Source of the DNA: Taxillus chinensis
Taxonomy: Eukaryota > Streptophyta > Magnoliopsida > Santalales > Loranthaceae
Length of the DNA: 64,000 nucleotides
Assembly: GCA_023512835.1 (NCBI GenBank)
Contig: CM042086.1
Coordinates: 19,909,029-19,973,028 of the forward strand
Direction: 5' to 3'
Positions 29,033 to 58,191 of the stretch are shown here, piece after piece (positions within the stretch are counted from its first letter, which is position 1; every line of letters starts with the position of its first letter). The translations under genes were made by a program, and so were the position numbers. A model generated the notes under the pieces. That model searched no databases, had not been told where the DNA came from, and saw only the letters and a program-made list of their open reading frames with translations.

Positions 29033-29035
<3 letters not shown>

Positions 29036-33281: not shown

Positions 33282-33435
33282 AGGAGGCTCATGTGTACCT
33301 TGACACAACGTGTTTTAACAGGTCATGGCCCATTAGAAACAAATCCGTATGTGCTATGGATCATGCGTGGATGCACAAGTGCCAAAGTGGATAATATTGT
33401 GATAGTGATTGCCCTGACCGAGGTCCAATAGATTA

Positions 33436-33795: not shown

Positions 33796-33912
33796 TCAAG
33801 CACTGATTGGACTAATTGAATATTTCTAAATGTTAGAAAGGAGAGGGAACCCCCAAACAAGTTGATGATCGTTTGAATGGGCAAGGTAATTTTCCAAGGT
33901 GGAGATTATTAG

Positions 33913-34405
33913 TGAGGGTGGCAGATTGGAGCTTCTCGTGACGTGAAGGGTTTCCCGTATTTGTGTGATACGGGCTAGAAGGGAAGGCTTCCCGTGATGT
34001 GTTTCTATTGTGCCCGTATTGGTATCACTTGTGATACGGGCAAGTGCTCTTGCCCGTGGCGTGTTCTAGTTGTGCCCGTATTATGGCCGCGACAATGGTC
34101 GTCACGGGCACGTGATGCATGCATTTGGTTTCATGCGCATGATGTTTGGGGGGTTGCGGAGGGCGGAGCCTTTCGCAGTACACATCAGTTATTTTGTGTA
34201 TGGTTATATTTTAAAACAGTTGAGATAGTAGTTATGTATTTTGTTTTTTAAATAATTGTCTATTGTAAGAATTAGGGTAACGAACAATTCAAAGGACTCT
34301 CACGTGAACGTACCCAGGTTTTTGGGGAACCACATAAAATGTTGTGTTGATTTTTTTATATTTATAGTGTGAATTATGTGCATGTGCTATTGTTATTTTC
34401 AAAAA
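33913..34405 (+). repeat. Copia 3' LTR remnant (copy A)
   Basis: A purine tract (GGTGGAGATTATTAG) is followed by TGAGGG and about 490 bp rich in CCCGTAT/ATACGGG inverted motifs, ending before TTGGTATCAAAT. That order (pol, PPT, LTR) suits a copia 3' LTR. The trailing TTGGTATC resembles a primer site, as if the LTR once began another element. No matching 5' LTR is visible before 15613. Confidence 0.5.
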
Positions 34406-34421
34406 TTGGTATCAAATTAGT

Positions 34422-35008
34422 AGCTCCCCCTCAATCTACATCTTGATTGAGATCACACCAGTTCGATCACTTGGCAACAAGGGTCTTTTTTTGAGGACAA
34501 CCAAGCTCTGATACCACTTGGTAGAATTATGCCAAAGTATAGGCTCGTCTGCATGTCATAATATTGTCTATTTTGGGCTCGCTATATTGGTTTGCATGGC
34601 TTTAAAACGTGTTGTAACATTTTTGGGTCTGTTATACCTTATTAATCCCCTTAGCTTTCCCTGCTTTCTTCCATATGAGACATAATTTCTCAATATTCTC
34701 CCCTTTATTACACATCGAACCATATTATAGGACATATCTATAAAATTGAGCTGCCACCATATGGGTTGCATGGAATTTTCCTTGCAGCGCCCCCTCAATT
34801 TACATCTTGATCGAGATCACACCAGTTCGATCACTTGGCGACAAAGGTCTTTTTTCGGGGACAATCAGGCTCTGGTACCACTTGTTAGGATCGGGCTAAG
34901 GTGCAGGCCCGCCCACATGTCATAATATTGTCCACTTTGGGCTCGCTACATCGGCCTGCACAGTTTTAAAATGTGTTGTAACATTTTCGGGCTTGCTCTA
35001 CCTTATTA
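34422..35008 (-). mobile_element. TRIM family 2, partial tandem unit (copy A)
   Basis: Read on the minus strand: a partial LTR (35008-34883), an internal segment with primer site TGGTACCAGAGC (34880-34869) and a GGGGG purine tract, a complete LTR 34786-34519 (268 bp, starts TGCAAGG), then primer site TGGTATCAGAGC (34516-34505) and a second internal segment to 34422. The period is 364 bp. The LTR-internal-LTR-internal order is a tandem TRIM, truncated at both ends. The open frame in the LTR (34568-34798) is not a gene. Confidence 0.65.
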
Positions 35009-37400
35009 CTACATATTTCCTCCGAGGATTTGAATGTTCATATATCCTCTAAATGGCGCCCCTTTGCATCTGGCATGAAGGCATATCCTTTTATGCATTT
35101 TTTTTATGTTACTCCATTTAGACACTTTTTTAAAAAAATTACAAATAAAAAGTTATGACAAAATATAGCTTATATATGGGTATCTCTGAATTTAGTAATA
35201 AAAACAAGATCAGTCAATGTGTTGACTGAGTTGCTAATAGCATTTGCCATTGTTAATAGTGTCTGTCCTATCGGGGGCGTGGTCAACTTAATTATTATTG
35301 TCTTCCTTTTCTTGTTTAGGTGGAAGGTCAAGTTTTAAAGCTATGCCCCGCTCTATGTGTATGTGGGGCAGAATACCCCATTTTCTCGTGGGACTAATGA
35401 ATGAAGATACATCCACTCGTACCTTAATATCACTCTTTATTGGATCTGTCCATATAAATAATTTTGACTTAAATCAATTTTTTATACTATTTTTGACCCA
35501 AAAAATATCAAAATGATTTAATTTCACAATAATAAATATCATTCAAAAATATCAAAATTTATATAAAAAAATAATTACAAAATAATTAAATATTAACATT
35601 TAAAGTATTATAAAAATATAAATGTAAACAATTAAAATTAGGCAAAGTGAAGCAGGAGCAAGTCAAGATAGCCTGCTATTTACTATTATTTTTCGCCCCT
35701 GATTAGGTTGGATAACTTGCCCCATATAGTGGGGACGAAACAAAAAACAGACAGAATAGTGGATGTGGGTATCCATTGCCCACCCCTACTCAAAGCTTTG
35801 ACTAATTAAGTATAATCCACCGAGAAAATGATTCACTATCTAATTTGATAGTTTAGGACCATCCCAAAGTGTGAAAAAGGTTTGTGTACTATCCTACTGC
35901 CATTTACTACTAATTACAATCATATATACATGGGGTGCAAATAGAATTTACAAGGTAAATGTAGGTGCATTTAGGCTCGAATTAGTTGATTATTGTTTTC
36001 TTTTGGTCATTTGGTGTATTTCACAACTTTGTTTGGTTAATGGTGATAATTTTGGTAGTTTGTGAGGCATAGTGAACTGAGAGAGAAGAAAAGTTAATTT
36101 TAAATTGTGAGGAGAAATTTAGGCACAACTATTTTGCAATTTCTTCAAATGTTGCATAAAAGGGTTGTCTTCCATTTAGAAGGCATGAGGAATGTGAGCC
36201 AAGTGTAAACGGAGCATGGCTAGCTTGAGTAGCCACAATTATGTGTTATAACAATTATGCGTTTGTTACTAGCTGGTGAGACTATGATGCATTATATTGC
36301 AGTTATTTTGTGATAACAATGATTGATTTTGGTATTATGTGTTAAATGTGTAGACAATTATGAAATAACAAAGTTATTTTTTTACCTTTTCAATTCATTA
36401 TTCTATCTCATGAAGCTAGCTTAACGAGTATAAAACAGAATCTGCTAAAGTTGAAGATATAGTAGGTGAAATTCAAAAATAATTCGAATGATATGTAATA
36501 TTAATAATAAATAATAAAAAGTATTATTCTTTTTTTCGTGCCATGAATCCATGCTTAATTTTCTCTTAGCAGGTAGCACAACCACTTTGATCACTCCTAT
36601 CATATAAGATGCATATAGACTTGCACAAATTGACATGCGAGCATTGTATTTTACCACACATACACCCTATTGTTAATTTGTTACCCCCCCCCCCCCCCCA
36701 AAAAAAATCAAGAATCAAGCGTGGAGCCAAAAGTTAAGTGGGGCCAATAGAGTAAAGAAAGAATAATGAAGCCAGTAAGAGTAACTCTAAAACCACTCTA
36801 TATTTTATATTTATGGGAAGAAAATTTTACATGTAAAAAGTTATTTTTTTAGTTTAACTCCAACAACCTTTACTATTTTATATGTATTTATGTTAAAATA
36901 ATATTTTTTCTCACTCCACGGATCGCCAAATCTCTCTGATGGCGGCAATGCGACGAGCAAGTCTTGCGATGGGGGGCACCTAGGATGGGGCGGCGACAAA
37001 GAGAGGCATAGAGAATGGGAGATTGGAGCAAATAGGAGAGAGAGAGAAAAATATAGAAAAATAATATGTAGCAAATGAATAGTAACTTTTTATTTGTGAA
37101 GAGTTATTGTGGCAATTTTCAAATGTGAAGAGCCTGTTGGAGAGTAAGTTTTTTACATATGAAGAGCAAATTCAAAATTAAATTTATATTTTAAAATAAA
37201 AATAATTAGAAATATTTTTAAAAAACTGCTTCAAGATCTATGTCTTTTGGAAATAAAATTATGAATTTAATTATATTAAATTGATGTGAGACCTACGCTT
37301 TTAGAATGTGAAAACAGAAAACTAATTTGAAAACTTTATATCAAACAGAGTTGTATATATTCTTATTATGTATTGTTCACATAAGGTATGCCCTCTTAAG
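35009..37400. other. AT-rich intergenic stretch, no gene (copy A)
   Basis: Nothing coding is supported. A GGGGC/GCCCC-containing pair at about 35330-35400 and 35690-35745 may be the ends of an old MITE. A poly(C) run lies near 36685-36700. The match to copy B continues to 36978, where the window cuts copy B. Confidence 0.45.
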
Positions 37401-37404
37401 GTGT

Positions 37405-37580
37405 GGAGTTATCTTAGGGGGAAGATTAGTTGGCAAAATAGGTGTTACAACTCAAAAGAGGTATCTAGTTCGAGTTCCTTAGAAGACGCTAGAATTGCGA
37501 ATGCTCTGTACATCCTATAATATGGTGGCATTCCTTGCCTAGGCAGTGCTAAAAATTTGTGTTATTATGAGTCTTACATC
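37405..37580 (+). mobile_element. Possible tRNA-derived SINE
   Basis: A B-box-like GTTCGAGTTCC (37468-37478) lies about 40 bp after an A-box-like TTAGTTGGCAAAATAGG (37427-37443). That spacing suits a tRNA-type pol III promoter. No cloverleaf, target duplication or A-tail could be fixed, so this is weak. Confidence 0.25.
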
Positions 37581-38172
37581 CCTTAGTCTGGTGGGACTTG
37601 GATTGAATTAGAGGACATGAGTCTGGAAGAAAGTTTTCCTCACATATGCTATGGCGTTACCAATAGACTTTTCCCTAAGAAAGTTTTCCTAAATATGAGT
37701 GTTTGGCTCTTTAACCCCCGTGATTTCATATAGGCACTTGTTGATATCTCCTATATGGCTATATCCAGTGGTATAAGATTACAAGAGTATTTCTCTCTTA
37801 CATTGTCACACTAGTTTTCCATTTAAATGAATAGCAAAGATAATCTTGTATTTATGATGGTTTTGACATTTTCTTTGGTCAATTATAGTAAAAAAAACTA
37901 ACGAAAACTGAGCCTATAAACTTGTAATATGTACAACTGTTGTTACATCATAGTAAAACTGGGATTGAGTTGGTTGTTGCTAGATTTTTTTTTAAATTAG
38001 TGTATTATATAATTAGGAGGTTGTGATTTTACAAACCAAGACTTTGGAGTTGGGACCATAGATAGAATTGGTAGAATGATTTCAAAACAATGATTTTATT
38101 TTTAAAAATATAATTTAACCAATAAAATGTGCTTCATATACATGTATTCTTAATAAAATTATAGTTTATTGA

Positions 38173-38224
<52 letters not shown>

Positions 38225-38399
38225 ATTTTCCTTCTCTTTTGGTCCATTTATAATGTAAAATGTATTATTATTATTATTATTACTATTATTTTTATTTTGT
38301 GTTTTGGAGTGTTGTGTATGATCCTATAGGTTGTTTAAAGCATTTTGGACCTAATTGGAGCCAAACAAAGGTAAAAGAAACAAATCATAGAAATACGGG
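37581..38399. other. Intergenic DNA with (AT)n microsatellite
   Basis: No gene recognised. A pure AT/TA run of about 42 bp lies at 38175-38216 and an (ATT)n run near 38265-38290. Confidence 0.6.
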
Positions 38400-38940
38400 C
38401 AGCATTAAAAAAATAAAAATGAAGTAACCGTGGCCGAAAGAGATGCGGCCGCTGGCCTTTGCAATAGCGTAGTTATTCCTAGTCGTGGCCGAAAGAGATG
38501 CGGTTGCCAGGAAACCATTAATACATTTCCTAGATGCGACTGTGTAGATGTGCGGTCGCTAACCCTTCCTACATAACAAGTTTTCGTTGCCATGGCCGCA
38601 TTGTATTGAGGCTTCAACTTTACGACTGACAGAGCAGCAGCCACGACCAAAGCAGCAGTTATCGTTACATTTTGTGCTATTTTTATCCTTTTCTTACCTA
38701 TTTAAGGGCGTTGTTGCCCGACGAAGAGGGGGACAAGAGTGAGACGTGAGAGTAAGGGCAAGAACTTTGCATTATTAAGTTATTTTTCTGATTGAAAAAG
38801 GCTATTGCATTAGCTTCGTGGGAAACTTTGAAAGAAAGGGAAACCATAGGAATTCTTATTGTGAAATAATAAGCTCTCCTCTCCCCTACGCCCGATTTAG
38901 CTGCAAGCCATTATTAATGTGATTTTATTTAAGAATTGAG
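38400..38940. repeat. Repeat-like segment, possible LTR debris
   Basis: CGTGGCCGAAAGAGATGCGG occurs twice (about 38430 and 38484), with further degenerate GGCCGC/GCGGTCGC motifs, followed by a leader-like ACCTATTTAAGGGCG stretch. This resembles the U3-R part of a gypsy LTR, but no ends or partner LTR are identified. Confidence 0.35.
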
Positions 38941-39123
38941 GATAGCTCGATCTACTTTTTTTATCATCAATGTGAATTGTTTATTTTTAGATTATTATTA
39001 TTATTATTGTTGCATGTGCTTCTTAATCTTATCTTTACAATTTTCCTATTGCATTCCATTAAATCAACTCCAAATAACTTTTACTAAAAAGTGATTCTAG
39101 ATTGCGTAATCTCTAGGGAGAGG

Positions 39124-39163
39124 CTTAAGCTTATGAGGCACGAAAGTAGCTCATAAGCTTAAG
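39124..39163. repeat. Perfect 14-bp inverted repeat
   Basis: CTTAAGCTTATGAG at 39124-39137 and its exact reverse complement at 39150-39163, separated by 12 bp. No terminator or MITE context is evident. Confidence 0.9.
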
Positions 39164-39629
39164 AGATTTAATTTACTTCTTGACCATTAATTTTTTCTAT
39201 AAAAAAATCAGATAATTTTTCATTCGTGCGAAAGCAGGTGAGATTTTGTTTATAAAAAAAAATTTACACGAGATGATTTCCCTTTAAATTAAAATTGTGA
39301 ATGTTAGCTTACTTTGTTTTCTTAATTAAATGCATTTCAGCTTTAAAATTAAAATCAATTCATCTATTAGTTTAGACATTATGCTCATGAAGGGAATAAG
39401 GATCTTTATTATAACTGCCACAGATGTGGAGCTCAATATGTTGGAAGTATAAGCGTATTGAATTTCTTCGCATGATTTCAATTACATTAATAGTTTTGTC
39501 CACGCCTCCGAGTGATCCACGTGTAAGATAATAAATGTTCAACAGATCTTTCTTACATCGGGACACAACGAGCTGATGAATTTGAATGCGAAGTTGATTA
39601 GTAGGAGCAGTGTCGTCTTAATCTGTTGT

Positions 39630-40055
39630 AAAGTTCCTTACTCCGTATTAATGAAGCTCAGATCCTTACCCCGTGTCAGTGGTTGCTTACTCCGTGTCAA
39701 TTTGATACTTGAATCCTTATTCTGTGTCAGCACTTTCTTACTCCGTGCGAGTAAAGGTGGATGGCTTACTCTGTATCAGCGTTTCCTTACTCTGTGCGAG
39801 TAAAGGTTCGGATGGCTTATTCCGTGTTAGCACATCCTTACTCTGCTTGAGTAAAGGTTCGAATTCCTTACTCTGCTTTTCTTTTCATTACTCCGCATAA
39901 GTAGAAGACTTAGCTCTTTATTCTGCATCTCTTTCTTACTCCGCGCGAGTTGTAGACTAAAATTCTTAGTTCGTTTGAGTGTAAGACCCGGAACCCTTAG
40001 TCTATATATTTAAGTGTTTAGTCCGCGCTAATAATCCTTACTCTGTATCTTGTAA
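39630..40055 (+). repeat. Degenerate tandem array of CTTACTCYG-type units
   Basis: Roughly a dozen copies of a CTTACTCYGYRYRAGT core recur every 20-40 bp, with variable linkers including AAAGGTTCG. The irregular period suggests an old, eroded minisatellite. Frames crossing it are by-products of the repetition. Confidence 0.65.
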
Positions 40056-40639
40056 TGACTTGGTTATTTACGAAGTTGACTGACGACACTCACGTTGGTC
40101 CGGATTAGGATTACGTATCATGTCCTTAACTTTATACTTATGAGTGAAGATCCAGATTTAAACTTGTCCTCTGCAACATGTTAGAAATTACATTGAAAGA
40201 TCTCAAACTAAATTACATAGGGTTTTATTAGCATCATCTATATTCTGGGTTCGATCCAACATGGACAAAGCATAAATAAGGGAAACAGAAAACTTTACTC
40301 GAAATTGCATGGAATCCAAGCTACTAAGTCCACATATGTCCTTTTTGATGCTCTCTAGCTCCCTTTTTCTTTAACTCTTTCTTTTTAAAAAGACAACTTA
40401 GCTTAATTATAGGGTTAAAGACTCCTTTTTATATGCCAACTCCTTTATTTAATTAAAATAAACTTAAGCGAAGTCTTAAAAATGCTTCTTGGGGTCATGA
40501 ATTCCAATTTAGTCCAAATATAGACATAATTATCCATTTGATACATACATCACCATATAAATATCCATTTCTCATAATAAAGTTTCCATAACAGGGCTAA
40601 CTCCAATAATTTAAATACAAGCCTTTACATATCTTTCCA

Positions 40640-41140
40640 ACATCATGCTCCACCCTCGGTCTCTTGTGATTGGACCTTATAACTCCATTTGATTTCTAGG
40701 ACTTGATTTGATCCAACTCAAGTTCAACTATGATGACCTTATTGGTTGCATCCCGATAGGTAATCAACTTCATTATATTCCACCCACATCAAATAGCTAG
40801 ACTTAGTTTATTTATGAAATCTTGGGTCTTATACGCCTTAACCTTCCACGTATATGACACAAATCTACCCACATTCGTGAAGGCCCTAATATGCCCAATC
40901 ATTATATTACTTCCTTGCTCAAAATTGTATTACTTCATCTACCTCACCTTTTGCACCAAGTGGGAAAAGTACTTTTCATGTAAGAGTTCTACAAACTCAT
41001 TCCAAGTTAATTGATTCCCGTGAACTACTTTCATGGAGTCCTACCATCTCCAACCTCCATAAACCATAAAGTGAGTAGCCAAATGGACTCTAGCATCATC
41101 TAGCACATGTATTAGCTTTAAGATGTCCTTAGTTATGCAA
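40640..41140 (-). pseudogene. Ty3/gypsy gag fragment, decayed
   Basis: On the minus strand near 41110-40950, a short stretch reads as a gypsy gag core: a DDAR-like segment, an ATHFM-like segment and then NEFVELLHEKYFP, the conserved region of retrotransposon gag. Stops and frameshifts interrupt it throughout. There are no LTRs nearby that I can pair with it. The spacing of the motifs makes chance unlikely. Confidence 0.6.
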
Positions 41141-41866
41141 AAACCTGTGTTTTTAGATAACATTTTAAGATAACCTTTGTTTAAGAATGAAAATATCTAG
41201 ATTGTGATGTAATTGTCGATACGAGCATTTTGACTGTAATTGAGCCTGATTTGAACTTCGAAGCCTTAAGAGGCTATTTTGTGAATTTATTAGATTATTG
41301 GAGTTAAAATATTAATAAAAATGATAAAATAAGGCTGTGTGTGACTATGAGAGAGAAAAAAGAATTTCATCATTCATTTGACAACCACGTAAAATAATCA
41401 ATTATACATCAAAGTATCCCAACAATTAGGGTTTTCAACCAAAAAACGGCCAAATCTAATTCTTCTAAATTACAATGTATGAAACTTAATTATTTGGCAT
41501 AGAACCCTCACATACAAGTTGAAATCATTGTTTTAAACATCAAACTAACCCTAATTTAACAAATTAAACTCAAATTCCCAAATTCATAATTTATATGATT
41601 CATGTCAAATTTCCAATTTCTACATAATGTAGGTACAATTAAATCCTTTGAATGGCAGAGAGGGCTAGAACCATCTACCTAAAATCATTTTGGATGATTG
41701 AATTCCTCATATGATTTCTAAAACCTATTCTCTTTCATATTAAATATAAATTATTTTTAAAAGATAATTTAATATAAATTTCAATAGAATTCAAAACAAA
41801 AAAATCAATAGTGTTTTTTAATGAGCACCACCCTTACATACAAATGCTTTGGGCAAGCATGACATG
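41141..41866. other. AT-rich intergenic DNA, no gene
   Basis: No coding or repeat structure is recognised before the 413-bp element. Confidence 0.5.
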
Positions 41867-42279
41867 TGTCACGACCCGAGCAGCGTGGTGCTGGCGGGAT
41901 GTTTCTCAGTGGCACGATTCAGGAATGTATTCGTGCTACGTAAAGGAGAGGGGTTGGTTGAAGCGTAGATGGTGCGCAGCAGAAGGTTCCAGGCAGTTCG
42001 TGGAGGAAAACGGATGGAACCCCTTCGGAGTTCAGACGTGCCGACCCGGTTGAATGCGGGGAGCACGCCGCTAGTCGAAGACTTGACGTTGAAGAAGAGA
42101 TTTGGCCATCCTTACACAAACTGGTCGGAAACTGGAGCCATTCTCTTGATGAGCCCAGTGGCAGGGCGAAACCAGTCTACGTGCGCTTCAACCCTTAAAG
42201 GCTAAACTTAGCGGACCGTGGATAGAGAAGTTAAGTGTCACATTGGGTTGAGAGGCGCAAGATACCTGACCCCGTGACA
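41867..42279. mobile_element. 413-bp TIR/solo-LTR-like insertion flanked by CATG
   Basis: It starts TGTCACGACCC and ends CCCCGTGACA, so the first and last 7 bp are perfect inverted repeats (TGTCACG/CGTGACA) with TG...CA ends. CATG stands on both sides (41863-41866, 42280-42283). The element is clearly GC-richer than its AT-rich surroundings. Most likely a small gypsy solo LTR with a 4-bp duplication. A nonautonomous DNA element is possible; since CATG is palindromic, the duplication is weaker evidence than it looks. Confidence 0.55.
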
Positions 42280-42283
42280 CATG

Positions 42284-42740
42284 ACACCCCACAATGCTTT
42301 TATGAGGTACAATCACATTACCATGCTATGCGGCTGTTTGGTAACAACCGCTTTTATTATTGTTTTTAAAAAATATAAGCTCATTCAAATTTAATAATAA
42401 TATATATTTAAAAGTTATTTTTAAAAATAACATGTTCCATATCTATTTTCAAAAATTATTAATAACTGTATTATGTTTTTAAATATTTTTTTTATTTTTC
42501 TTTTGTTTTATTGCTTCAAATATTTTTTTTTTAAAATTTTTTTATATTTAATTTTAAAAAATACATATTCTTTTTATAACATATTTTTTTCCTTGCCAAA
42601 CACAAATTATTTTTAAAGTATAATTAAATATAAAAAAATAAAATAGAAAAATCAAAACTTATATCTAATAACCCTAAATCCCTAATTTTTCTACTTTCTC
42701 AATGTATAAAAATAAATAAATATTGATGAAAATCCCTTAA
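42284..42740. other. AT-rich intergenic DNA upstream of the WDR3-type gene
   Basis: T-rich, A-rich sequence without coding content, leading into the promoter region of the next gene. Confidence 0.5.
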
Positions 42741-42745
42741 CCCCT

Positions 42746-42754
42746 AAACCCTAA
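42746..42754 (+). promoter_or_regulatory. Telo-box AAACCCTAA in the WDR3/UTP12-type promoter
   Basis: AAACCCTAA lies about 150 bp upstream of the start codon, with related TAACCCTAAATCCCTAA sequence at 42668-42685. Telo-boxes are common in plant promoters of ribosomal-protein and ribosome-biogenesis genes, which suits a WDR3/UTP12 gene. Confidence 0.6.
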
Positions 42755-42905
42755 CTTCCATCGCCCCGCTGTCTTCTCCATGTACAGACCAGTCGCCTCC
42801 GCCCCTCCGTTCCGCGCAAACGCACTGCCACTGCGCTGCTCGCTACTCTCTCTAAACCCGTTTGCTTTGCAAAATTAGGGTTCGGAGGTAGCATCGGCGA
42901 CAGCG

Positions 42906-43136
42906 ATGGTGAAGGCGTACCTGCGGTACGAGCCACAGGATGCGTTCGGAGTTATCGCTTTCGGAAACTCAAACATCGCCTATGACAGCTCCGGCAAGCG
43001 CCTCCTCGCTCCGGCCCTCGAGTCTGTCGGCGTGTGGAACGTCCGACAAGGCGATTGCATCAAAACCCTAACTCCTTCGCCGTCTTTCCCTGGCCCCCCT
43101 CTCGCCGTCACCGCCATCGCTGTGTCTCCTTCACTG
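42906..43136 (+). CDS. WDR3/UTP12-type WD40 protein, exon 1 only
   Basis: WDR3 (yeast Utp12/Dip2) is a WD40 subunit of the UTP-B complex of the small-subunit processome, needed for 18S rRNA maturation in the nucleolus. This exon gives 77 residues starting MVKAYLRYEP, then FGVIAF, APALESVGVWNVRQGDC and KTLTPSPSF. These are the conserved N-terminus and first blade of the family. The start codon sits in GCGACAGCGATGG after a GC-rich leader. The exon ends at CACTG before GTACGC, phase 0. No further WDR3 exon follows: 41 bp later the sequence becomes copy B of the kinesin intron. Most of the gene (around 900 codons in the family) is missing here and may lie beyond the window if the duplication is a true tandem. 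Confidence 0.85.
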
Positions 43137-43209
43137 GTACGCGCTCAGCTTTCGTTTTAGTACCGACAATTCGTTTTAGATGAGATATGATAAATTGTCC
43201 TACTTTCAG

Positions 43210-45274
43210 TTTCTTGCTGCTGCGGTTTTGGAGGGCAATGAGTTTGTTTCTGATATTCAGAATTCTATTGATGAGCAAAAACGAATGTTTGCCGCTTCTG
43301 CTCTAAGACAGGAGGAGGTGAGTGGAAGACCTAATTTTTACTTCCATTGCATATGTTTCTTCTGAGTGACCCTTAAATCTTAATTTTGTTGGTATTCTAG
43401 GGATTACAATGTAGCCTAGTATCAGCCAAAGTCATTTCAGAGGCCACAGTGAACTTCTTTAACGATCTTCACGATCGTGCTTCGACACTTATGAAGACTA
43501 TTGAAGAAAACCAAATTGAGAGGGGTCAACAATTACAAACATTTGAGATGATGTTCAAGGTATGCTGACTGAAACTTCCTTACGAATGCTTATGCAATGA
43601 TGGAGAAAAGGTGAAACTGATAATATATCCTTAAATTATCGCCTTCAAATAGGAGGCTGCTGCTAGGGAGGAGAAAATAGCCATGGAAAAAATCGCATCA
43701 ATATTGGCTACAATGACGATGAAGAAGACATCTATGGTAGGTTGCTTATCAAGTATCAACTGAAAGGATCATTTGGTGTGGGCCTTTGAATTTGACATCA
43801 AATAAATATTGTTTAGTTGTCAGAGGCCTCCAGAAACATTCAGGATTCAAGTATGAAGGAAAGTAAGAGATTGAGACAAGAGGTATCAGACATGCAGCAA
43901 ATTTCAGGAAATGCCAAGGTGAAGATTTTTAATTATGTAGAGAAGGTGAAAAGTAATTTCCTGGAAGACACGTTCTCATCAGCTGAGACAAGGACTGCCT
44001 TGGAAGAATGTCTCCAGGAATGGTAAGCTCTAATTTTATATGATGCCTTTAGCTAATCATTTATTATTTTCGCACTGTTGTTTGATGTCATGGTATTATG
44101 GAATCATTTAAGTTTGGTTAGAGATGGTATACCCCGATCAAAGTTTACAACTATGATGGTTATAGGAAGAGTGAACTAAAAATCAGGTTATTGCAATATA
44201 AAATGAGATTACACAACAAATTGTACGTATGAATTTGTTGATTCTCCATACTACCAAATCTTTAAAACTAGGTATATTACTCCATATTAATGACATCATT
44301 TTTTCCGAAATGCAGCTCAGAAAAACTGAATGACTCACGGCAGCATTGGGAAAATGCCCAGTCATGGTTAAACCATAATAATATGAGCAATGTGGCAGGA
44401 ATCGAATCTTCAGTGAAGTGAGCTTTTACTTTTTCTTTGATTTTTTGTGATTTCCCTAGTTCTTATTTCCCCATAAACGTTTGACTCCCTTTCCTAAAAC
44501 AGAGCAAACATTTGTTCAAATAACACTGCACACAAAGAATTTGTCTCCGAGTCCAGCTACCTCAAACAAGAACTCGATGCAAAAACATCTGAAATATTGG
44601 TGGCAGTAAATGGTATGTTACTTTTTTCTTTTACTCCCGACACTTTGAACTTAATTCCTTTCTCTCTCTTATTCCCGACACTTGAACTCATGAGTGTGAG
44701 TTCTCTTCTATCAAGCATGTGCTCACATTCTTGACTAACTTGCAGATTCACTGATGCTGGACCGTAAAATTAAGAAGGAATTAGACTCCATGTCCACCTT
44801 GGGTTGTGGTCAGCTGAAATCTGTACAACGAAATCATGGTGACAATGTGTCAAAAATCAGAAAAGAAGCAGAGAAGTCGCTTACAAAAGACTATATGGTA
44901 AACTATTTTACGTTCCAAAACGTCTCCAATTTCTGGTTGACCTACTACAATCTATTATTATTAAAAGTCGATATCTATTCTATATGATTGTTTATGGTAA
45001 GCTAGCCTAACTTACAATCTATTATATATGATTGTTTGCTAAATTGCATTACCATGAACAGCTTGATGAGGATGCAACCCCAGAGAAACGGGAAATAGAT
45101 GTGCCCACGTTGGCCTCAATTGAGGAAATGAGAGCAAACGTCTCTGAGATAGGTGATCCTACTATGGAGAATATATCCAACAGTAGCTATGCTGCCGGGA
45201 GCAAGTTACATCAACATACACACACACAACAACGCGCATGCCCCAATAGGACTCCTTTTGCAGATGTCAATTGA
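43210..45274 (+). CDS. Kinesin-5 tail exons, copy B, joined to WDR3 exon 1 as a possible chimeric gene
   Basis: Exons are 43210-43317, 43401-43559, 43653-43736, 43817-44022, 44316-44417, 44503-44612, 44746-44897 and 45062-45274. They match the last eight exons of copy A with intact splice sites and frame, giving 377 codons of tail. The motor domain, neck and most of the stalk are absent, so it cannot be a working motor. Instead WDR3 exon 1 lies upstream, with a 73-bp interval (43137-43209) bounded by GT and AG and phase 0 on both sides. Splicing would give a 454-aa fusion. Only a few coding changes separate the copies (a Thr-to-Lys near 43855 and a Glu-to-Gln near 44567). Alternatively it is an unexpressed fragment or an assembly join. 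Confidence 0.65.
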
Positions 45275-45340
45275 TTTATGTGTGATTCTAACTGGCTAGG
45301 CCAGCTGATGATGTCGTTGGGGGCGCTATATAAGTGCATG

Positions 45341-45387
45341 CGACTCTGACTGCAAAAGTGCGTGCGACTCTGACTGCAAAAGTGCGT
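45341..45387 (+). repeat. 24-bp minisatellite, 2 copies (copy B)
   Basis: Same unit as at 2772-2842, with two instead of three copies and a slightly changed left border. Confidence 0.85.
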
Positions 45388-45673
45388 TCATTTACTGATG
45401 AGCTCGAGTAACTTGAGACGCTGCAGTTTGCGTGAGAAAGCTGGTGGCTGGTGCCCCTTTTCAGAAGTTGGAGGATTATTTGTTGTAGTAGGTGCTACTA
45501 TTATTCCTTTACTTAATTGATGTACTATTTTTTTTATTTGTTGTGTAAAGAAAGTAGCTGTGGTATTTTTGTGTTGTCATCACAAACTAGAGAATGAAGA
45601 AGAGGCTGTCTGTTTTATAAGGGAACAGCCAATGGTTTTCTTCTATATTATATTAATAAGGTAAAAACTTTTC

Positions 45674-45679
45674 AATAAA
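45674..45679 (+). promoter_or_regulatory. Candidate polyadenylation signal AATAAA (copy B)
   Basis: Same position relative to the tail exons as in copy A, so the chimeric gene would keep a natural 3' end. Confidence 0.35.
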
Positions 45680-45782
45680 CCTATGGAGCCCCAAGGCAAA
45701 GTATCAAATACAAAACTCAATTGCCTTTAAAAAACAAAAAGCATTACCCAGAAAACAACAAAAGTATGACTCAAGGCTATCG

Positions 45783-45815
45783 CAGCATCCTGCAGCTCTC
45801 CTCCTCCTGCGTGTA
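45783..45815 (+). repeat. 33-bp templated duplication, left copy
   Basis: The segment CAGCATCCTGCAGCTCTCCT and its continuation through GCGTGTA is identical to 45877-45909. Copy A has different sequence at the left site and only the right-hand version, so one copy was changed locally after divergence. Confidence 0.85.
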
Positions 45816-45849
45816 TCTTTCAATTCGAACTCTATTCTCTTTTATACAT

Positions 45850-46130
45850 AAACTCTACTATGTATTTTACTATCATCAGCATCCTGCAGCTCTCCTCCTC
45901 CTGCGTGTACCTCAACGTCATAAATCTCCAGGGCTCTCCTCCAGTGAACAAGGATCGACGGGTCCTTCGACGGGAAGGGGCGGTGTCGGACTTGGCAGTG
46001 GGTTCACCGCCCGCTTTTGTTTTTTCCAATTCCGCCGCACCGGTGGCCCCCGACCGGGTGGGCTGCAGCCGCCGGATGATGCGGGCTCAATTCTCTCCTA
46101 GGACTCCTAGGGTTTAAGTGGTGACATGTA
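45850..46130. other. GC-rich block of unknown nature (copy B)
   Basis: Counterpart of 3300-3600. About 150 bp in the middle differ from copy A by many small indels, so no frame is shared. No function is recognised. Confidence 0.4.
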
Positions 46131-46718
46131 GCTTTTTAGAAACTTTGTAAAAAAAAAAAGTATGGGATAGAATTCTCCTAGGACGCACATGGATCTATCT
46201 CATGAAATAAATCTGATGTTAGGACTCTTCTAGTTAACAACATCAATGCGATTGCCACTCGGTTTGATTCCAAAATTAAGGTTATCATCGACAATGGCCC
46301 TAATTTAAGCTTGGGAGCTTTTATGTTGATAAAGGTATACGGCGTCAAACTAGTTGTATCAATATAATCCAATAATAAAATGAGATTATTGAAAGTAAGG
46401 ATAAAAATGACATCCAAAACTCATCTAAGAAAATTTCATTTCAAATTCGTTTCTATATATGTCAATTTGAAATTCATTCTAATAGGAATGAAATAGATAC
46501 ACAAAATGACCCGTGCTATTGTTTCTATATACACAACGAGATTGGTTTAGAGTGAATCACCCTTGCCTCGAACCCATCCTAAATTTGTGATGGGTTAAAC
46601 AAATTAGTTCCAAATCTATCATGAATTTGATTATGTCAATTCCAAACCCATTTTAATAGGATTGGGATGAATCGGGTATCCGGTATGACCCATTCCATTG
46701 CTATCCCTACTTGAAAGA

Positions 46719-47929
46719 AAACCTTTGCTCGCATTACCAAAATGGTGATAGTCTATGTTCTCTTTAGTGTCGCATCTTTGCATGGCTGTCATATCCATAT
46801 TTACAGCATCTTTTTGAATGGCAACCTTGAAAAAGAGGTGTCATGTCCTAGCCTCCTAATTTTGGATTAAAGGGAGAGACTCAAGTCCGTCAATTGCACA
46901 AGTCGTTGTATGGTTTAAATCAAGCATCTAGGCAGTGGTTTATCAAACTCTCTACAACCCTCAAAGCCGCGAGATTTCAGCCCTTTCAATCCGACTATTC
47001 TCTATTTGCCTGACGTCATCAAGGCAGCTTCCTAGTGTTGCTTGTGTATATTGATGATGTTATACTAGTAGGAAATAATTTGGAGGATATAGAGAATACT
47101 AAATCCTTCTTGGCCAATCAATTCATACTCAAGGATTTGGGGTAGTTAAAGTACTTTCTTAGCATCAAAGTTGCCAGATCACGACATATAATCAGTTTGT
47201 CGCAACGCAAGTATGCCTTATAAATTTTGAATGATATTGGACTTTTAGGTGTTAAACCTTCTCGGTTTCCTGTACAACAGAATTTGCTACTCACACTATT
47301 TAATGGAAAATTATTAGATGATGCTTTGGTATATAGAAATGGTTGGGAGGTTGATATATTTGATCATAACCAGACCAAACCTGACTCATGTTATACGTGT
47401 ACTAAGCCAGTTCATGGATAAGGCACGATAACCACAATTGGAAGCAATCTAGTGCTTAAGTACAAAGTCACTCCAATTGTGGGCATTCTGTGATGTCAAT
47501 TGGGCATGTTGTAAAGACACAAGGAGAACATATCAGAGATTGAGTATCATATTGTAAGTACTAGTATCACGTTCAAGTACATAGGCTGAGTATCATATCA
47601 TGGCTACCACCTGCTGAAGTCACATAATTGAAGAACATTTTAAAGGATTTTGGAGTGGATCACAAGCAACCAGTAAAACTGTTTTGTGACAATCAAGTAG
47701 CTATATACATGCTATCAAATCTGGTGTTTCATAATAGAACCAAATACATAAAAATAGATTGTCATCTCATTCAAAAAAAAATTAACAAGAAATGATTTAA
47801 ACAACTCATATTTGAACTACAAATCATCTGGCCAATCTACTCACTAAACTATTGAACTAAATACAGTTTGAAATGTTACTTGGATGTTATAAACATACAC
47901 TTCAACTCGAAGAAGAGCCTAGAATGAAA
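46719..47929 (+). pseudogene. Decayed Ty1/copia pol (RT and RNase H), copy B
   Basis: Same remnant and same main lesions as 4188-5400. The active-site codon run reads YIDDV here instead of YVDDV. Differences from copy A are few. Confidence 0.8.
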
Positions 47930-48694
47930 TAATTTATTTCTTTATTTATGAATGATTTAGCTTAATCATATAGAAACCATTTTTGTAACTTAAGTACGGG
48001 ATTCTGTCTTTAAATGTTGAAATCAATTTGCATATTATTCACTTTTATTCCCAATGTCCTTTCTAGCTGCAGCCCATGAGCTTCAGCGTATTTGTGTATA
48101 TATATAGAACCAATGATGGCAAGAAATTGGCTTGATGGAAAGCCCAAGCATTAAGGTAGGACAGTTTGTTTTGCAAATAGGATTAGTTCTCTTTTGCTAA
48201 CTGGCAGTTTTATTGCACTGCTGATTCGAGGTGTTTAGGGTTCATAATTTTTGGGTTGCCTGAACGGTTAATTGACTTTATTTATTCTTAAAATAAAGAA
48301 AAAAGAGGAGGTGTGTTGGTGGCAATCTTTTCATTTCCTCTTCTTCTTTAGTATTATTATTATTATTATTATCACTACTACCCCAACTACTTTGTGATAA
48401 TGTTATCATTATCAAAAAGCAATTAATCAGCATCCCTCCTGAGGACGACATTTTAATGTGGATTAATTTGTCTGAATTTTTATGCTCAGTATGGGTCCAG
48501 TACAGGTTAGATAGATTTTAGTTCGAACTCATATGAGAAAATTGTTTTGAATTTCCTGTGACCGTTCATGCATGAACAAGTTGAAGAATTCATGAATTTG
48601 CCAACTGATGGTTTAGGACGCTGCAATCCTCTGATCATCACCATTTACAGTTTGTTGATCGCCTTTTGGGGCTGGATTTTCTCTGTCATCCTTA
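47930..48694. other. Intergenic DNA with ATT microsatellite (copy B)
   Basis: Matches 5401-6170. No gene is supported; the last part corresponds to the old C-terminal coding tail and 3' region of the transporter, now beyond its premature stop. Confidence 0.5.
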
Positions 48695-50479
48695 TCATTT
48701 TCCCAAGTCATTTGCTTTGTTTTTTTTCATTTCTCCATCTTCAATTGATGGCAATGAGGGCTTTCTGTCCTTGCTCTTTCCCCACACCACCATATAGAGC
48801 CCCACAGCTATGACCATGGCCCCTATTGCCCTGATTCAACACATTTGGAATCACTAGATAGATGAAGGCCATATTAACAGTACACAACTGAAGATGATTG
48901 TGATTTTTATGTTACCTTCCTAGGTACAGTTGCTCGCCCAAGAAGAAGCAGCTGATAGCAGCAACGATAACCATGCAGAGAGGATTAAAGGCTGTCACAA
49001 AGACAGGACCCCTCTCTTTCATGATCACTCCCTGAACGTAATAAGCCATCCCTGAACAAACTATCCCCTGCAATACTTACCTTTTTGAGGGCTAGATTTG
49101 GAAATGGGTGATCGAGTTCAATGCAAAATCATAGGTTTAGAAATATGCGTACACTGTATGCAGCTGCTAGGAGTCTGGAGTCCCAACCTATAGACCAGAC
49201 AAAAGCCCTTCCCCTCTCCATTACCAGCGCAACTATAGTGCCTTGAGCCGTGCCCAACAGACATATCCAAGCAGTTAGAGATAGCTCAGCTGGGTAGGTT
49301 CTAAGTGTGATTGCCTTGAAAACATTGCACATCAAAAAAAAAAAAAACCACAAAAAAGAGGAGGTTAAGGGATCAATAATTTTGGGTACCGTAGTAGAGA
49401 AATGTAATTTTTGTTATGAGACACGACATACTTGCAGAATGATAAAAGAAGCCCAGCTAAAACATCCGGTTGTGATCATCAGAGAACCCTTTATCGAATC
49501 ATGCAGAGATATGCCACCAATTCTATCCAATCCGCCATGTTCAAGAGGGCTATTGCTTGCTCCGTTTGTCCAAAACAACTCAATCACTGGTCCTCTCATC
49601 AGCGTCATGAGCATAGCTCCTGCCACCGTGGTCAGTGTCCCACCCACCTTGGATTGACTGTAGATGCTCCTAAAGCTCATCTCCTCTAGCCTGCCATGGA
49701 TTCTTTATGGTTACACTCAAAAGCAGTTGTTCTTTCTGGGTTAATGTTGATGCTAAAATTCAGCTGAAGACATAATAAGTGCTGCACGTAAAATTTTACC
49801 TGAGTATCCAGGCCATTAAAAACGTTATGGCTGGAAGAACATTGCACATGGTGGCTGCAAATGTTGCCGATGTCTGCTTCATACCCATGTAGTACAAATT
49901 TTGGTCGATGACGGGCCTATTATTTGATTTCAATATAGTTTAGATAGGGGGGAAAGGGAAAAAAACCATAAAGTTCTTGCAGAGAGGTTACTGAATGAAA
50001 GGAAATTAATTATGTACACAGCAGAAATTCAGAAATTTACTCGAGGAAGCTCAGCAGCATTAATTTAGTGAAGATTGCTGCGGTCATCTTTGGCCTCACC
50101 TTCCTACATAAACAGAATCAAAATTACCCTGATATTGAATATTCTTCTAGCCGTTCATTATATATCATCATTCCAAATTTGTTTATTAGAGAAATAAGTG
50201 TGTCTCAGAGATGGACTTGTCCAGGAAGAAGGCGAAGGGGGCAATGACGACGGTGGCAATGGCGTGTCGGTAGACGACGAGTACGTAATTGCTCATCCCT
50301 TGCTTGAGTGCTACCATGGATAAGATATCCATCCCTGCAAAACCAATCTGCAAGAGCACCACCGCAACGAAGGGCTTTGCCACAGACATAAGTCCACCAT
50401 TATGGGTAATTTCATTGCTTGGCTTCTGGTCTCCCATGTCTCTCTGCATGCGTTCCACCTCAGTACCACTACTACTCAA
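48695..50479 (-). CDS. WAT1-related (EamA-type) transporter, copy B, C-terminal frameshift
   Basis: Exons on the minus strand are 50217-50479, 50041-50103, 49800-49916, 49432-49690, 49153-49314, 48916-49067 and 48695-48830. All splice sites match copy A. In the last exon a poly(T) run on the plus strand (48720-48727) has eight T where copy A has seven. The reading frame shifts after GEMKK and stops at 48695-48697. The product would be 383 aa instead of 410 and loses only the charged cytosolic tail; the membrane core is intact, so transport may survive. The lesion lies in a homopolymer and a sequencing error must be excluded. Confidence 0.8.
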
Positions 50480-50530
50480 TGGTTTCTACAAAGTTGATGT
50501 CCACTGGTTTAATTCCATCATAATTCCCTC

Positions 50531-50539
50531 TTTATATAG
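50531..50539 (-). promoter_or_regulatory. Candidate TATA box of the WAT1-like gene (copy B)
   Basis: TATATAAAG at the same distance from the start codon as in copy A. Confidence 0.45.
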
Positions 50540-50599
50540 GCAAGTATTTTTTGTAAAGCATCAAATTATTAGCCATCCCACTTTCAAAAGGTAAGGCGC

Positions 50600-52776
50600 A
50601 CAAATTGTTGCTCCTGTATCAAACCTCAATTATTCTTACCCAAAACTATTATTTGCTACCCCATGGTGCCCGATTAGTATAGGCGTATGTCATTAACAAT
50701 CATCGAGTTAAAGAGATTAACAAAGAACACTGAATGGGTGACGACCGGAAATTTGGAGAGCGCCTGGGAGGTCATGGGGGTGGAGACCGGGGAGATGGGG
50801 TGACAAAAAAAACATATTTGTTTTACACACAACTAAAGAATAAAAAGTTAATTTATTTCAAAGTATACACCGGATAAATTTGATATTTATTTTTAAAAAC
50901 TATGAGTTCAAATAATTTTTTATTAATTATAAATATTTTTAAATTTATTATTTTTAAAAATAATTTTATTTTTAAAAATTAATTTTGTAAAAAGTAGATT
51001 TTATATTTATTTCTAACAATTATTTCTAACTAATTTTTATTTTTAAATATAAATTTAATTCAAATTTATTCAAATAATTTCTAACAATGAGATTCAAATA
51101 TTTTTTCTATTTTCTATTTTGTTATTTGGGTCTACTAAGTTTTTTTTTTTAAATTAAACTTAATTTTAAAAAATACAAATATTTTTAAAACATATTTTTT
51201 CTTACCAAACAGAAATTATTCTCAAATTACAATTCAAAATGAACACCGATAGAATTCAGAAAATAAAATATAAAAATCAAAACTTATACCAAATAGACCT
51301 TCATATTTTAATAGAATATCAAAAAAATATGAAATTTGAGTATTTATAGGGTCTTTAATTTATTATGTTAAATTCTATATAACCAAACTTGAATTGTAGG
51401 TTATTTTTATTTGACCATATAAATTAAAAAAATTCAAGATCATAAAATAATGTAGACATACAAATCTTTGCCTGATATTTCAAAAATTGCCTTTAAGTTA
51501 TTTAATTTAGTGCTAATTAGCTTGTTGTTGGCTAATAATTACGTTATTATTGAAAACATATATATGTTGATATCCTTTCCACGTTTGGTGTGTGTATATG
51601 TATTGTAGCGAAGTTGTATTTTGTATTTTGTACTTATGAAAAACTAGTTTCAAAGTTGCACTTGTCAAGACAAATGCATGGTTTTAAGTATTATTTATTT
51701 GTATAGTTAATTTTTATTAAATTGTGTTTAATTGTTATATTTTAAAATTTATTATTTAGTATATGTATTTTTTATTTTAGTGGTTTGTTAAAATTTTTAT
51801 TTTTTGTTAATGTTTGAATTAGCTTTATAATATTTTTATTTTAATTAATTTATAAAGTTATTTACATTAAATTAACTTTATTTAATTGATATATTTTTAA
51901 AGTTAAAATTATTATATATACTATTTAATATAGATTATTAATCTTATTTTTGTTCTGATAAATATTATTTTAAATTAAAATTATTTATTTATTTACATTA
52001 AAATGACATTTATACATAGCATTTTTATCTTTATTTTATATGATTCTCTATCCTATTATAAGGAATAAAATACATATTATATGTGCTCCAACCTTCTCTC
52101 TGCTCAACTCTTCAAAATAACTTTATATGGCTCCTTACCATATATATGTTGATGCTTTTAATAGCTATTTTTGTAATGGTCATATTTTAAAAAATAATAA
52201 AATATTCTATAGTTATCAAAATTGAGATGATGAATAAGGAACATAGTTGAAGATGTTTCTTTTTAAGAAGAAAATTTTATTAAAAGAGAAAAAAAATTAC
52301 AGTAACAACAACATGTCTTGTTGATAAAAAGAATATCTAGCTAAAGTAAAGACAAATCTCCTAAGGCACAGAGGAAATTAAAATAACAAGGATCCTTTTA
52401 GAGCACTTACAATTGCCTCAACAAAGCTTGATTGTAATTTAGTCAAATAATTAGTTTTTATAAATTATAACTAATCTAATTTTACACTATAAAATAATGA
52501 ATTCAACAAAATGTTAGCATTTTAATTAAAATATTAACTAAAATTTTGTAACACTCTCTCTCCCTACACCACCCCATCACCCACCCTTCTAATCCTTACC
52601 CCCCCCCCCCTTTCCTATCGACGTCGATAATGTATCCAAATATTTAATTAAAGTTAGAGCCCCCAACACCAACCCATCTCATTCATTTGACCTAAGCAAC
52701 CAATACACTTCGAACTTCTAAAGCAGCACGCCGGCATGCCCTAAAGTAATAACCCATCTCCTGGTAGTAACTCTAA
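50600..52776. other. AT-rich intergenic stretch, no gene (copy B)
   Basis: Matches 8080-10190. It keeps 42 bp at 51528-51569 that copy A has lost between two TGTTG repeats. No coding content. Confidence 0.5.
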
Positions 52777-53116
52777 GAGCATCCATAACAGATTTGGCAT
52801 AATCAAACTTTTCCTATAATTTAGAAAAAAATAGAAATTTATCAAAAATTCATTCACATCAGGTTTCCTATAGGGATTTATTATTCATCCCTAAATATTT
52901 TTCATATAATTTTTTAATATATATTATTATACTTGTAATATTTTTATTAGTGATAATAAATAAAAAGATAAGAGAGAAAATAATATAAAATGAATTAAGT
53001 AATAAATGTAGATAGAAATAGGGAATGAGATATTTGATGTTTTTGAAAAATAATCAAATTAGATACTATTCATCCCTAAAATAGAAATAAAAATACCAAA
53101 ATTAATGTGGATGCTC
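52777..53116. mobile_element. MITE 1 (copy B)
   Basis: Counterpart of 10194-10535 with the same GAGCATCCATA/TGGATGCTC ends and TAA flanks, so it was in place before the duplication. Confidence 0.55.
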
Positions 53117-53119
53117 TAA

Positions 53120-53481
53120 GAGCATTTGGTATAATTAAGTTTTCCTTATAATTTAGGGAAAAAAATACAGAATTATCAAAAATTCATTCACATCAGATTC
53201 CCTAAAATAGGGTATAGGGATAGGTAATGAATAGTAAATACCTATATTTAGGGATTTACTATTCATCCCTAAATATTTTTAATATATATTATTATATTTG
53301 TAATATTTTTATTGATGATAATAAATGAAAAAATGAAGGAGAAAATCATATAAAATAAATTAAGTAATAAATGTAAATAGAAATAGTGAATGAGATGTTT
53401 AATGTTTTTGAAAAATAAGCAAATTATATACTATTTATCCCTGAAATAGGAATAAAAATACTAAAATTGATGTGGATGCTC
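53120..53481. mobile_element. MITE 2 (copy B)
   Basis: Counterpart of 10539-10901. Its right end reads GGATGCTC, closer to the MITE 1 terminus than the GGATACTC of copy A. Confidence 0.55.
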
Positions 53482-53484
53482 TAA

Positions 53485-56400
53485 TGCATCTCTACCCTCT
53501 TTGTTCTGCCCTCCGGACCCTCCCGCTGGCCACTTGCAGTGTTGCCCCACCACACTCCTCCCTCTCAGGCGGTTGATTGTTTACATATACCCACAAAATT
53601 GATGTAAAATATTTTGGATATAAATCGTCATTAGAATTTAGAACTGTTATTTCTATGATTTCTCGATGACTTATCCACCATAAAATCTATTATGAATTTC
53701 TCATTAGAACTATTATTTCGTTGCTTTGAATTGAACCATAAAAACGTGTAGTGTTTCTTTTGATGATTTCTTTAGGGATCCATGTAAAAAAGTAACATTT
53801 ATATAATGTAAATACTAAAATATATAACTGCTATGATGTGTTGTATTTATCAGGGCTTGCTGCATATATAAATACGTATTTATTATATTTAAATTATTTT
53901 ACTTTTTTATGAAGACAATAATTTCTAGCGGATATGTTTTGTTATCTAGTCTATTTTTATTATTGTGTTTTTTTAATTTATAATTTCAATAATGATATAC
54001 GTTTTAAAATTTTATGTTGTTCCTATAATTATAGTAAAATAATAGTAATAATAAAAATCGATAGTTTAATATGTAAATACAAATATTATTATTATCTTAA
54101 AATGTATAAGAGATAGGGCCCCCAATTTAATAATCGCCTTGGTACCCTAAATCTCGGGGCAGGCCCTACGAGGGCGATGGGGTTATGGAGGAGGGGAGGA
54201 GGGGCAATGGGAGTGACATGGGGGAAGGAGGGGACTCAAGGGATGAGGGGCAACATGGGGAGGGGGCGACACAGGCTGGATAGAAGTAGAATTGAAATTA
54301 TTTGATGATGTGACATTTTCAATTAAAGCACAAACAAAGTAAAATTTTGCTTCTTTTTATTGCTTTAGTGTCTATGACTTTAACTAATACATTAGAAAGA
54401 GTTTTTGGCCAAATATAACTTTAGTTGTGACTTTAACTAATGCATTAGAGATGTTCTATGTCATTCATTTTTTTTATTTTTCGAAGATGATTGGTGTTTA
54501 AAAAAATTATTAGTTTGATGAATTGATAATTTTAAAAATAAAATAATTATATATTATAAGCAATACTCATCTCTTTTCTTTTTTAAATTATAAATTTAAT
54601 TAAATATTATATAAGCAAAAATATTTTGAAGCTAGTTAGAATTGAACCCAAGCTCGTACACAACATAAACAAATGTCTAACCATCAAACAATAATTATAA
54701 TAATAAGTAAAACATATTCCTTAATACATATATCATATATCATGACAGAAAATAATAAAATAATTAAACAAAATTATACTTAGAAAAAGCAAAATCTGAA
54801 TCCCACACAAAATATAAAAGCATAACCATCAAGCTAAAATTATAATTGTAAATTAAATGTATTTATTAATACATATAGGACTGATAATATTGGTAAAATG
54901 GTGTAGTAATAATATTGTAATATAAAATATAAGTATATGTCTCATTAAAATAAACTTTAACTACTTAAATTATGTAAAAACAATTAATTTAAATAATTTA
55001 TATATATACTACAAATATTAGTCGATCATTTAAATTATAAATATTCTTTTAAAATAATAAAAATTTAAAGTAATTTTATGTAAAACAAAGTTATATATAA
55101 TCATTTTAGTTACATTAAAGGAAATAGGTTATTGAAACAAAACTATTATATTATTTATAACATAAGTAATTTGATAATTATTTGATCAAATAATATTTGA
55201 TTGGATCATTTACCCCTTGCTTGGTTATTATATATTTGTGCATGGGGTATGGAAAGTGGGTTGATTTTTTTTCTTTTGCTTGGTAGAGATAGAAATGCCA
55301 TAGAAAGTATATCCGGTGATGCAAAACATGCATTGGAATATGTGTAGTATTTTTCATAGCAAAATGATATGAAAAGCTATAGAAAAGCAACCGTAGAGGT
55401 ATATTTCCATAATTGCCCCTATATTTTTTAACAATCAACAAACTCATTATTTGGTATAATTGGTATTTCATATTATATTATTTTTTTATAATTCTATTTA
55501 CATTATAAAAAAAATATTTTCTACCTCTTTTTTACCTCAACTAAACAACTATTCTTTCTACCTATTTTCTTTCTATCCCTTTTCCACCTAAAATTCTTTC
55601 ATAACTTTTCCACCCTTTACCAAGCAAAGGGTTAGTCTTCAATCAACTTATTAATAAATTCAAAATTAAATTTGAATCTAATTAATATGTTTATTTATAA
55701 ATTATTTTATTATATAAGTTATGCATGATGAAAGTGAGTTTTGACTTTTAATAGTAAATATTTCATATTTGAGTTAAGAATATAATAAATCATATTTAAA
55801 TATTAATACATTTTAAATTAAATAATATTTTATTGTATCACGTAATTCTAAATCAACTTATTATTAAATTTTAAACTAAATGTAAATCTAATTAATCTAT
55901 ATTAAAATATTATTAGTGCATTTATTTTTATTATAATATAAATATATATATATATATTTTATAATTACTATTATTAATATTATTTATATGTTAGGTTTTA
56001 CATATATATATATATATATATTATATAAGCATATTAAATAATAATAATAATAATATAGCCAGGGGTTTCAAAGTGTACGGTAGTTTTTCACAACTAAAAT
56101 AATTTAGAAATAAAAATTCTTATAAATGAGTTGTGTTGTTTATTTTTTCTCTATAAATAAAAGTAATTAAAGAGTTGCTGGAGAGCTCATTTAAAATTAA
56201 ATAAAGTTTTTTCTTGTACTGGTTTTTAATTTAATAAGAAAAATATTTTGAGAACACTTTTGATTTGCTGCCATTTAAAAGATATAAATATACAGGAAAA
56301 GTACGGTTCACTTATACTTTTATCTTAAATAAGTTATCGCATACATGTGATTTTGCAATGGTAAAACTCATCACTAAATAATGCATAAAGGTTACTACAA

Positions 56401-57394: not shown

Positions 57395-57533
57395 TAGACC
57401 ATCGAATTTGTATTTAACGGTTCAAATTATATTTTTTATTTAACTATAATTCCTCCAATACAATAAAATACTTTAAAGGAGATTATAATTAATAAAAATT
57501 TAATTTAAATTGTTGAATACAAATTCAATGGTC
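57395..57533. repeat. Foldback repeat (copy B)
   Basis: Counterpart of 14815-14952, arms at about 57395-57427 and 57500-57533. Confidence 0.5.
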
Positions 57534-58085: not shown

Positions 58086-58191
58086 TGCAGGGAATCAGGT
58101 TAAATGCCTCAGAATAGATAACGACAAAGAATACAACTAAGGGTAATTTTTGAAGTTTCGTGAATAACATGGGATACAATAACACTGGACT

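Follow-up and report, generated by a model that had tools for sequence, protein, structure and literature searches.

Tandem duplication is an established source of chimeric genes in Drosophila, where the duplications are reported to ignore gene boundaries and to fuse the 5' end of one gene with the 3' end of a second, keeping both parents and heading the chimera with the promoter of the 5' gene (PMC5460883, PMC4503668). Fusion genes are also reported to be frequent in Oryza, with parents from the same region in 2 of 35 expressed type I fusions of japonica, and members of this class are described as having fused when splice sites were changed or skipped following a segmental duplication (PMC9199173). 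Look-alikes have been documented too, namely false chimeric gene gains from duplication errors, in which duplicated exons are joined to another gene and the copies show allele-like divergence (PMC9516828). Judging by titles and the opening parts of abstracts, none of the five papers listed in a literature search deals with a kinesin/WD40/UTP12 fusion.

The locus described here, in which the start of a WDR3/UTP12 gene meets the tail exons of a kinesin-5 (KIN-5B) gene, resembles the Drosophila chimeras in its disregard for gene boundaries, its promoter and its seemingly retained parents. Unlike them, it comes from a plant and a single assembly, shows a repair filler at the seam, carries a retrotransposon in just one of the copies, and is known from DNA sequence alone. 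With the same-region type I fusions of Oryza it shares its position beside retained parents; however, its breakpoints lie in introns, and no splice change is needed. It also looks similar to the false chimeric gains, but has no assembly gap and carries at its seam a filler that repeats nearby sequence.

The window, meaning the whole stretch of 64,000 nucleotides of plant DNA that we analyzed (C3:19909029-19973028), is part of a 47.6-Mb contig in an assembly of 520,938,286 bases and 264 contigs. Self-comparison revealed that a block running from a KIN-5B intron to intron 1 of WDR3/UTP12 is present twice, head to tail, with the first base of copy 2 (43177) corresponding to the first base of copy 1 (609). 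The ends of this direct repeat sit inside the two genes, which lie on the same strand, and the native WDR3 intron 1 is found 27 kb downstream of the seam, beyond the window. Native KIN-5B was matched by tblastn from about 3.8 kb before the window onward, over residues 5-1053 of a Liquidambar homologue, with short unmatched pieces. Native WDR3 was matched from window-equivalent 69928 to 80009 over residues 1-925 of the 941 of a Cucumis homologue, again with short unmatched pieces (e.g. 524-532 and 703-714). Since matches outside the seam cover both genes almost in full, neither parent seems to have been broken by the duplication, as judged from tblastn matches in the flanks rather than from assembled full reading frames.

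Table 1. Positions in the window of the duplicated block, the candidate chimeric gene and associated features.
Feature	Position	Strand	Remarks
3' part of parent KIN-5B gene	1..2707	+	5' part in upstream flank
Copy 1 of block, kinesin intron to WDR3 intron 1, with LTR retrotransposon	609..43171	+	self-comparison, native intron alignment
LTR retrotransposon, 15,554 bp, copy 1 only	17728..33281	+	LTRs 17728-21414 and 29648-33281, TG...CA, target repeat AGGAG (5 bp)
Upstream/promoter region carried by chimera	42300..42905	+	telo-box AAACCCTAA at 42746-42754
WDR3/UTP12 exon 1, 77 codons (231 nt), phase 0	42906..43136	+	
Chimeric intron, 73 nt	43137..43209	+	35 nt WDR3 intron 1 + 5 nt filler + 33 nt kinesin intron
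Filler CGTTT	43172..43176	+	5 nt; neither parent has CGTTT there
Copy 2 of block	43177..64000	+	continues beyond window to window-equivalent 70193 (C3:19979221)
Eight kinesin-5 (KIN-5B) tail exons	43210..45274	+	377 codons + stop, open frame
Kinesin exons 1-4 of chimera	43210-43317, 43401-43559, 43653-43736, 43817-44022	+	
Kinesin exons 5-8 of chimera	44316-44417, 44503-44612, 44746-44897, 45062-45274	+	

Elsewhere in the duplicated block, short local tandem repeats about 80-83% alike, with a spacing of 334-364 bp, occur at 10209-10904, at 34422-35008 and in their copies. Judging by eye from the ORF at 7601-7957, a WAT1/UMAMIT-type transporter gene is likely to lie at about 4100-7960 on the minus strand, with its copy near 46600-50500; this ORF gave no Pfam match at E 0.01. 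Searches with Rfam (gathering threshold) and a tRNA scan returned no match.

At the seam, the chimera tracks native WDR3 to 43171 with one difference (43165), continues with the filler and enters the kinesin intron at 43177. The original prediction had placed the junction inside a kinesin-5 intron, where it indeed lies, and 41 bp after WDR3 exon 1, a distance that is corrected here to the 35 nt of WDR3 intron present. Together with its flanks, the filler reads TTCGTTTTAG and repeats a 10-mer 19 nt upstream; counting both strands, this sequence occurs in the window only at 43151 and 43170. The filler was possibly copied from 43151-43160, with TAG overlapping the kinesin end. When random 5-nt fillers were drawn, 57 of 4000 (~1 in 70) gave a direct or inverted repeat of at least 10 nt containing the filler within 60 nt, and under a null framed differently, for any 10-mer across the joint, the count was 8 of 3000 Markov sequences. 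The repeat is modest evidence that the filler probably arose by templated end joining, in which we infer a polymerase-theta-like enzyme.

The splice-competent structure proposed for the seam was borne out. The WDR3 donor (GTACGC) and the kinesin acceptor are intact, GT...AG borders are found in all eight introns, and the 73-nt first intron joins WDR3 exon 1 to the kinesin part in phase 0. The frame is kept through all eight kinesin exons, giving a nine-exon gene with a predicted product of 454 aa, 77 from WDR3 and 377 from the kinesin. The minimum intron length in dicots is ~70 nt according to older literature, a figure not counted as evidence here. WDR3 exon 1 is identical in the chimera and the native gene (0 of 231 sites differ). 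By homology, native WDR3 is predicted to use the same donor in phase 0 and to continue with VASGYANG, and its exon 2 reads VASGYANGSIRVWD in phase 0; a search for a native WDR3 transcript showing the exon 1/exon 2 join found none. We considered whether the in-frame join was remarkable and rejected the idea: both breaks fall in introns, exon lengths put 7 of the 10 visible kinesin introns in phase 0, and WDR3 intron 1 is in phase 0 as well. An in-frame outcome is therefore likely once the breaks fall in introns.

Among the matches listed, the nearest kinesin was P0012 (99% identity), followed by that of Liquidambar formosana (62%). P0012 is an 829-aa ORF on a 3603-bp contig whose source tag, lgn, we take to mean Logan, and it was regarded as a transcript because the ORF runs without the introns. 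It joins residues 452|453 exactly at 552/642 of the parent kinesin copy, indicating that the parent splices at this kinesin acceptor. P0012 reads like the parent across the junction and matches it at T131 and E242, and it differs from both copies at two further residues (H to Y, E to Q). Given these two differences, it comes from another allele, plant or species, which may lack the duplication, and so it counts at most weakly against the existence of a chimeric transcript. None of the 212 listed proteins matched both halves of the fusion; 124 matched the kinesin part and 88 the WDR3 part. The protein searches behind this count gave 11 matches (about 250-795 aa), 216 matches with 120 listed (503-1600 aa) and 87 matches (440-1390 aa), and for the sets of 11 and 216 the candidates scored were the 7995 and 7994 sharing the most words.

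We consider it probable, at roughly 0.7, that the locus is a real tandem duplication closed by non-homologous repair, with both parents kept and an in-frame gene left at the seam as a by-product. One break would have hit an intron of KIN-5B, the other intron 1 of WDR3, the genes being on one strand, and non-homologous repair would have joined the ends, leaving the 5-nt filler, probably templated. As the sequence shows, the by-product gene consists of the WDR3 promoter and exon 1 followed by eight in-frame kinesin tail exons. The chimera is probably a real structure of an ordinary kind, and its function is only putative.

How long the copies have been separate bears on this reading. We counted differences strictly, excluding sites within 12 bases of a gap. 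On the gene side, the copies differed at 5 of 2421 sites (609-3100), 1 of 288 (3101-3609) and 14 of 4767 (3610-8609), and in the remainder at 110 of 8548 (8610-17727) and 59 of 3452 (33282-36977). With the gap rule off, 177 of 9855 sites differed across 33287-43171. Counts from MAFFT (180/17045 for the copies, 85/3608 for the LTRs) were dropped, as they were inflated by the repeat-rich 3109-3609 and by gapped parts of the LTRs; blastn mismatches numbered 146 and 61. Between 609-8609 and 43177-51137 the copies differ by 0.2-0.3%, and in the rest of the block by 1.3-2%. The ~8 kb of genic sequence beside the seam is thus four- to eightfold less diverged than the remaining block, and 2,509 bp of it (6093-8602) are without substitutions between the copies, with small indels present. 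This low divergence fits gene conversion or a shared haplotype or mosaic rather than constraint on the chimera.

For the LTR retrotransposon, copy 2 has a clean empty site near 60300-60304, and the two LTRs, 3.6-3.7 kb each, differ at 43 of 3116 sites, so the insertion looks about as old as the separation of the copies. The element is nested in a Copia-like element. When 20 chosen ORFs were searched against Pfam, two gave retroelement matches on the left side (15604-16029 and 16703-17158), one gave a sub-threshold DUF3667 and 17 had no match; the piece to the right is, by eye, presumably a Copia RNase H. None of the six ORFs in the retrotransposon itself, from one of which the DUF3667 match came, passed the Pfam cut-off, and the 15,554-bp element may be non-autonomous. 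Together, the 1.3-2% divergence and the insertion in one copy indicate that the copies have been separate for some time.

These ages would also fit a real duplication made by illegitimate joining of two different homologues, a possible though clearly less likely history that overlaps with the one preferred here. Most of the divergence, and the retrotransposon, would then predate the duplication; the LTR divergence matches that of the copies outside the genic tract, and in the genic tract, with its 0.2-0.3%, the two homologues would have shared a haplotype. Because the two divergences are similar, dating does not separate an ordinary duplication from the joining of two haplotypes, and gene conversion after an ordinary duplication gives the same pattern. 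Methylated LTRs may mutate faster, which we counted against the joining of different homologues.

A point against a real duplication is that 1.3-2% divergence and a retrotransposon in one copy are also expected of two haplotypes. The assembler might therefore have set two haplotypes of one heterozygous region in tandem, with no chimera in the plant; the mosaic divergence of 0.2-2% fits allelic variation, and the false gains noted above are a precedent. We regard this as improbable. The 92 kb examined (window and flanks, seam included) belong to a single contig of 47.6 Mb and contain no N, whereas gaps are reported at several examples of false gains (PMC9516828). A 595-bp query across the seam matched three places in the assembly, namely the chimera and both parents (all 3 candidates were scored), and found no spare haplotype contig of the seam exons among the best-scoring DNA candidates; common words were skipped in this search, and the best candidates alone were scored. 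The filler, with its repeat of nearby sequence, has the look of an end-joining scar and so speaks against mis-assembly; simply abutting two contigs would not produce it, although a few stray bases could also come from a chimeric read or from gap filling.

Returning to the tandem duplication and its by-product gene, in the 606 bp upstream of the chimera 10 of 601 aligned sites are substituted relative to native WDR3, with three indels. Immediately upstream of the WDR3 promoter, at 42001-42299, divergence between the copies reaches a local maximum (13 of 299 sites). A telo-box promoter had been proposed; one copy of AAACCCTAA does stand upstream of the WDR3 start codon, at 42746, but as a signal it is weak, with three copies in the window against 1.32 expected and at least three in 15 of 100 shuffles. 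The WDR3 promoter probably drives some transcription of the chimera.

The idea that the product couples a nucleolar propeller to a spindle-motor tail was not supported, although the chimeric gene itself is supported as an in-frame, splice-competent structure made by the duplication seam, a claim that the native flanks reinforce. Only 44 residues match the first-propeller model of WDR3 (184 positions), scoring 20.3 bits against a cut-off of 154, and a whole propeller therefore cannot form from the N-terminal part. By domain profile, the two beta-propellers and the Utp12 C-terminal domain of WDR3/UTP12 are absent from the 454-aa product. If translated, the gene would yield a partial propeller blade attached to the motorless C-terminal half of a kinesin-5.

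As the original prediction stated, the motor is missing: the product has no motor match, and the parent motor exons lie upstream of copy 1. Compared to KIN-5B, the chimera shares the C-terminal 377 aa, including the terminal NRTPFADVN, but lacks the motor, the neck and the coiled coil between motor and junction. Its kinesin part begins at Liquidambar residue 674, and the motor ends near profile position 405. The kinesin-5 BASS, reported to form tetramers, starts ~280 residues after the motor end (PMC3978770). By this spacing rule it would run from about 685, ~11 residues past the junction, and the product should keep BASS and tail. PDB searches with the kinesin tail at E up to 1 and up to 10 gave no match, and the best 60 of 157 and of 160 rows in profile searches were motor-domain matches alone, with no BASS. 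An AlphaFold model of P0012 (30 sequences) was poor (mean pLDDT 58.7, pTM 0.28), and in it a helix at 395-551 spans the junction at 452/453.

Chimera and parent differ at 3 of 1134 exonic and 1 of 964 intronic sites in the kinesin part. The exonic sites (43857, 44567, 44575) change three codons, giving T131K, E242Q and a silent L244, and both replacements fall at columns variable among 30 sequences (Q 23, E 4, R 2, T 1; and A 20, E 5, S 2, others 3). The intact frame was tried as a sign of selection and rejected as uninformative, exon and intron divergence both being low and the block elsewhere reaching 1.3-2%.

A functional new gene, expressed from the WDR3 promoter and modulating KIN-5B through motorless mixed tetramers or spare tails, is on this evidence quite doubtful, slightly more so than the assembly artefact. 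The upstream region, splice sites and frame are intact, and the junction lies shortly before the expected BASS start; besides BASS tetramers, binding of the tail to the motor is reported in Eg5 and KLP61F (PMC7015671), and AtKRP125b is reported to slide microtubules and treated as a bipolar tetramer (PMC8583919). Raised expression was reported for 24 of 76 chimeras of D. yakuba, but chimera-forming duplications were at lower frequency and read as mostly detrimental (PMC5460883). The lack of any listed protein across the fusion also argues against function, as do the three codon differences, two of which replace residues at variable sites and none of which points to purifying selection. Very unlikely is the further picture of a young chimera, still bearing its repair scar, in which a ribosome-biogenesis promoter drives a motorless half able to join parent tetramers. 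In fast-growing cells this half would damp the sliding of spindle or interphase microtubules, and gene conversion with the parent next to it would preserve the tail. With BASS and tail kept by the spacing rule, the only activity at hand for the by-product would be to interfere mildly with the parent motor, and the chimera is most likely neutral and short-lived rather than a selected new gene.

The case is a further example of the known tandem-duplication chimera, well resolved at its seam. It would gain much more importance only if the chimera proved to yield a spliced transcript and to affect the parent motor. If confirmed by reads, it would provide a clean plant example, with seam, filler, both parents and in-frame product in one stretch, and the path from DNA break to chimeric gene would be readable.
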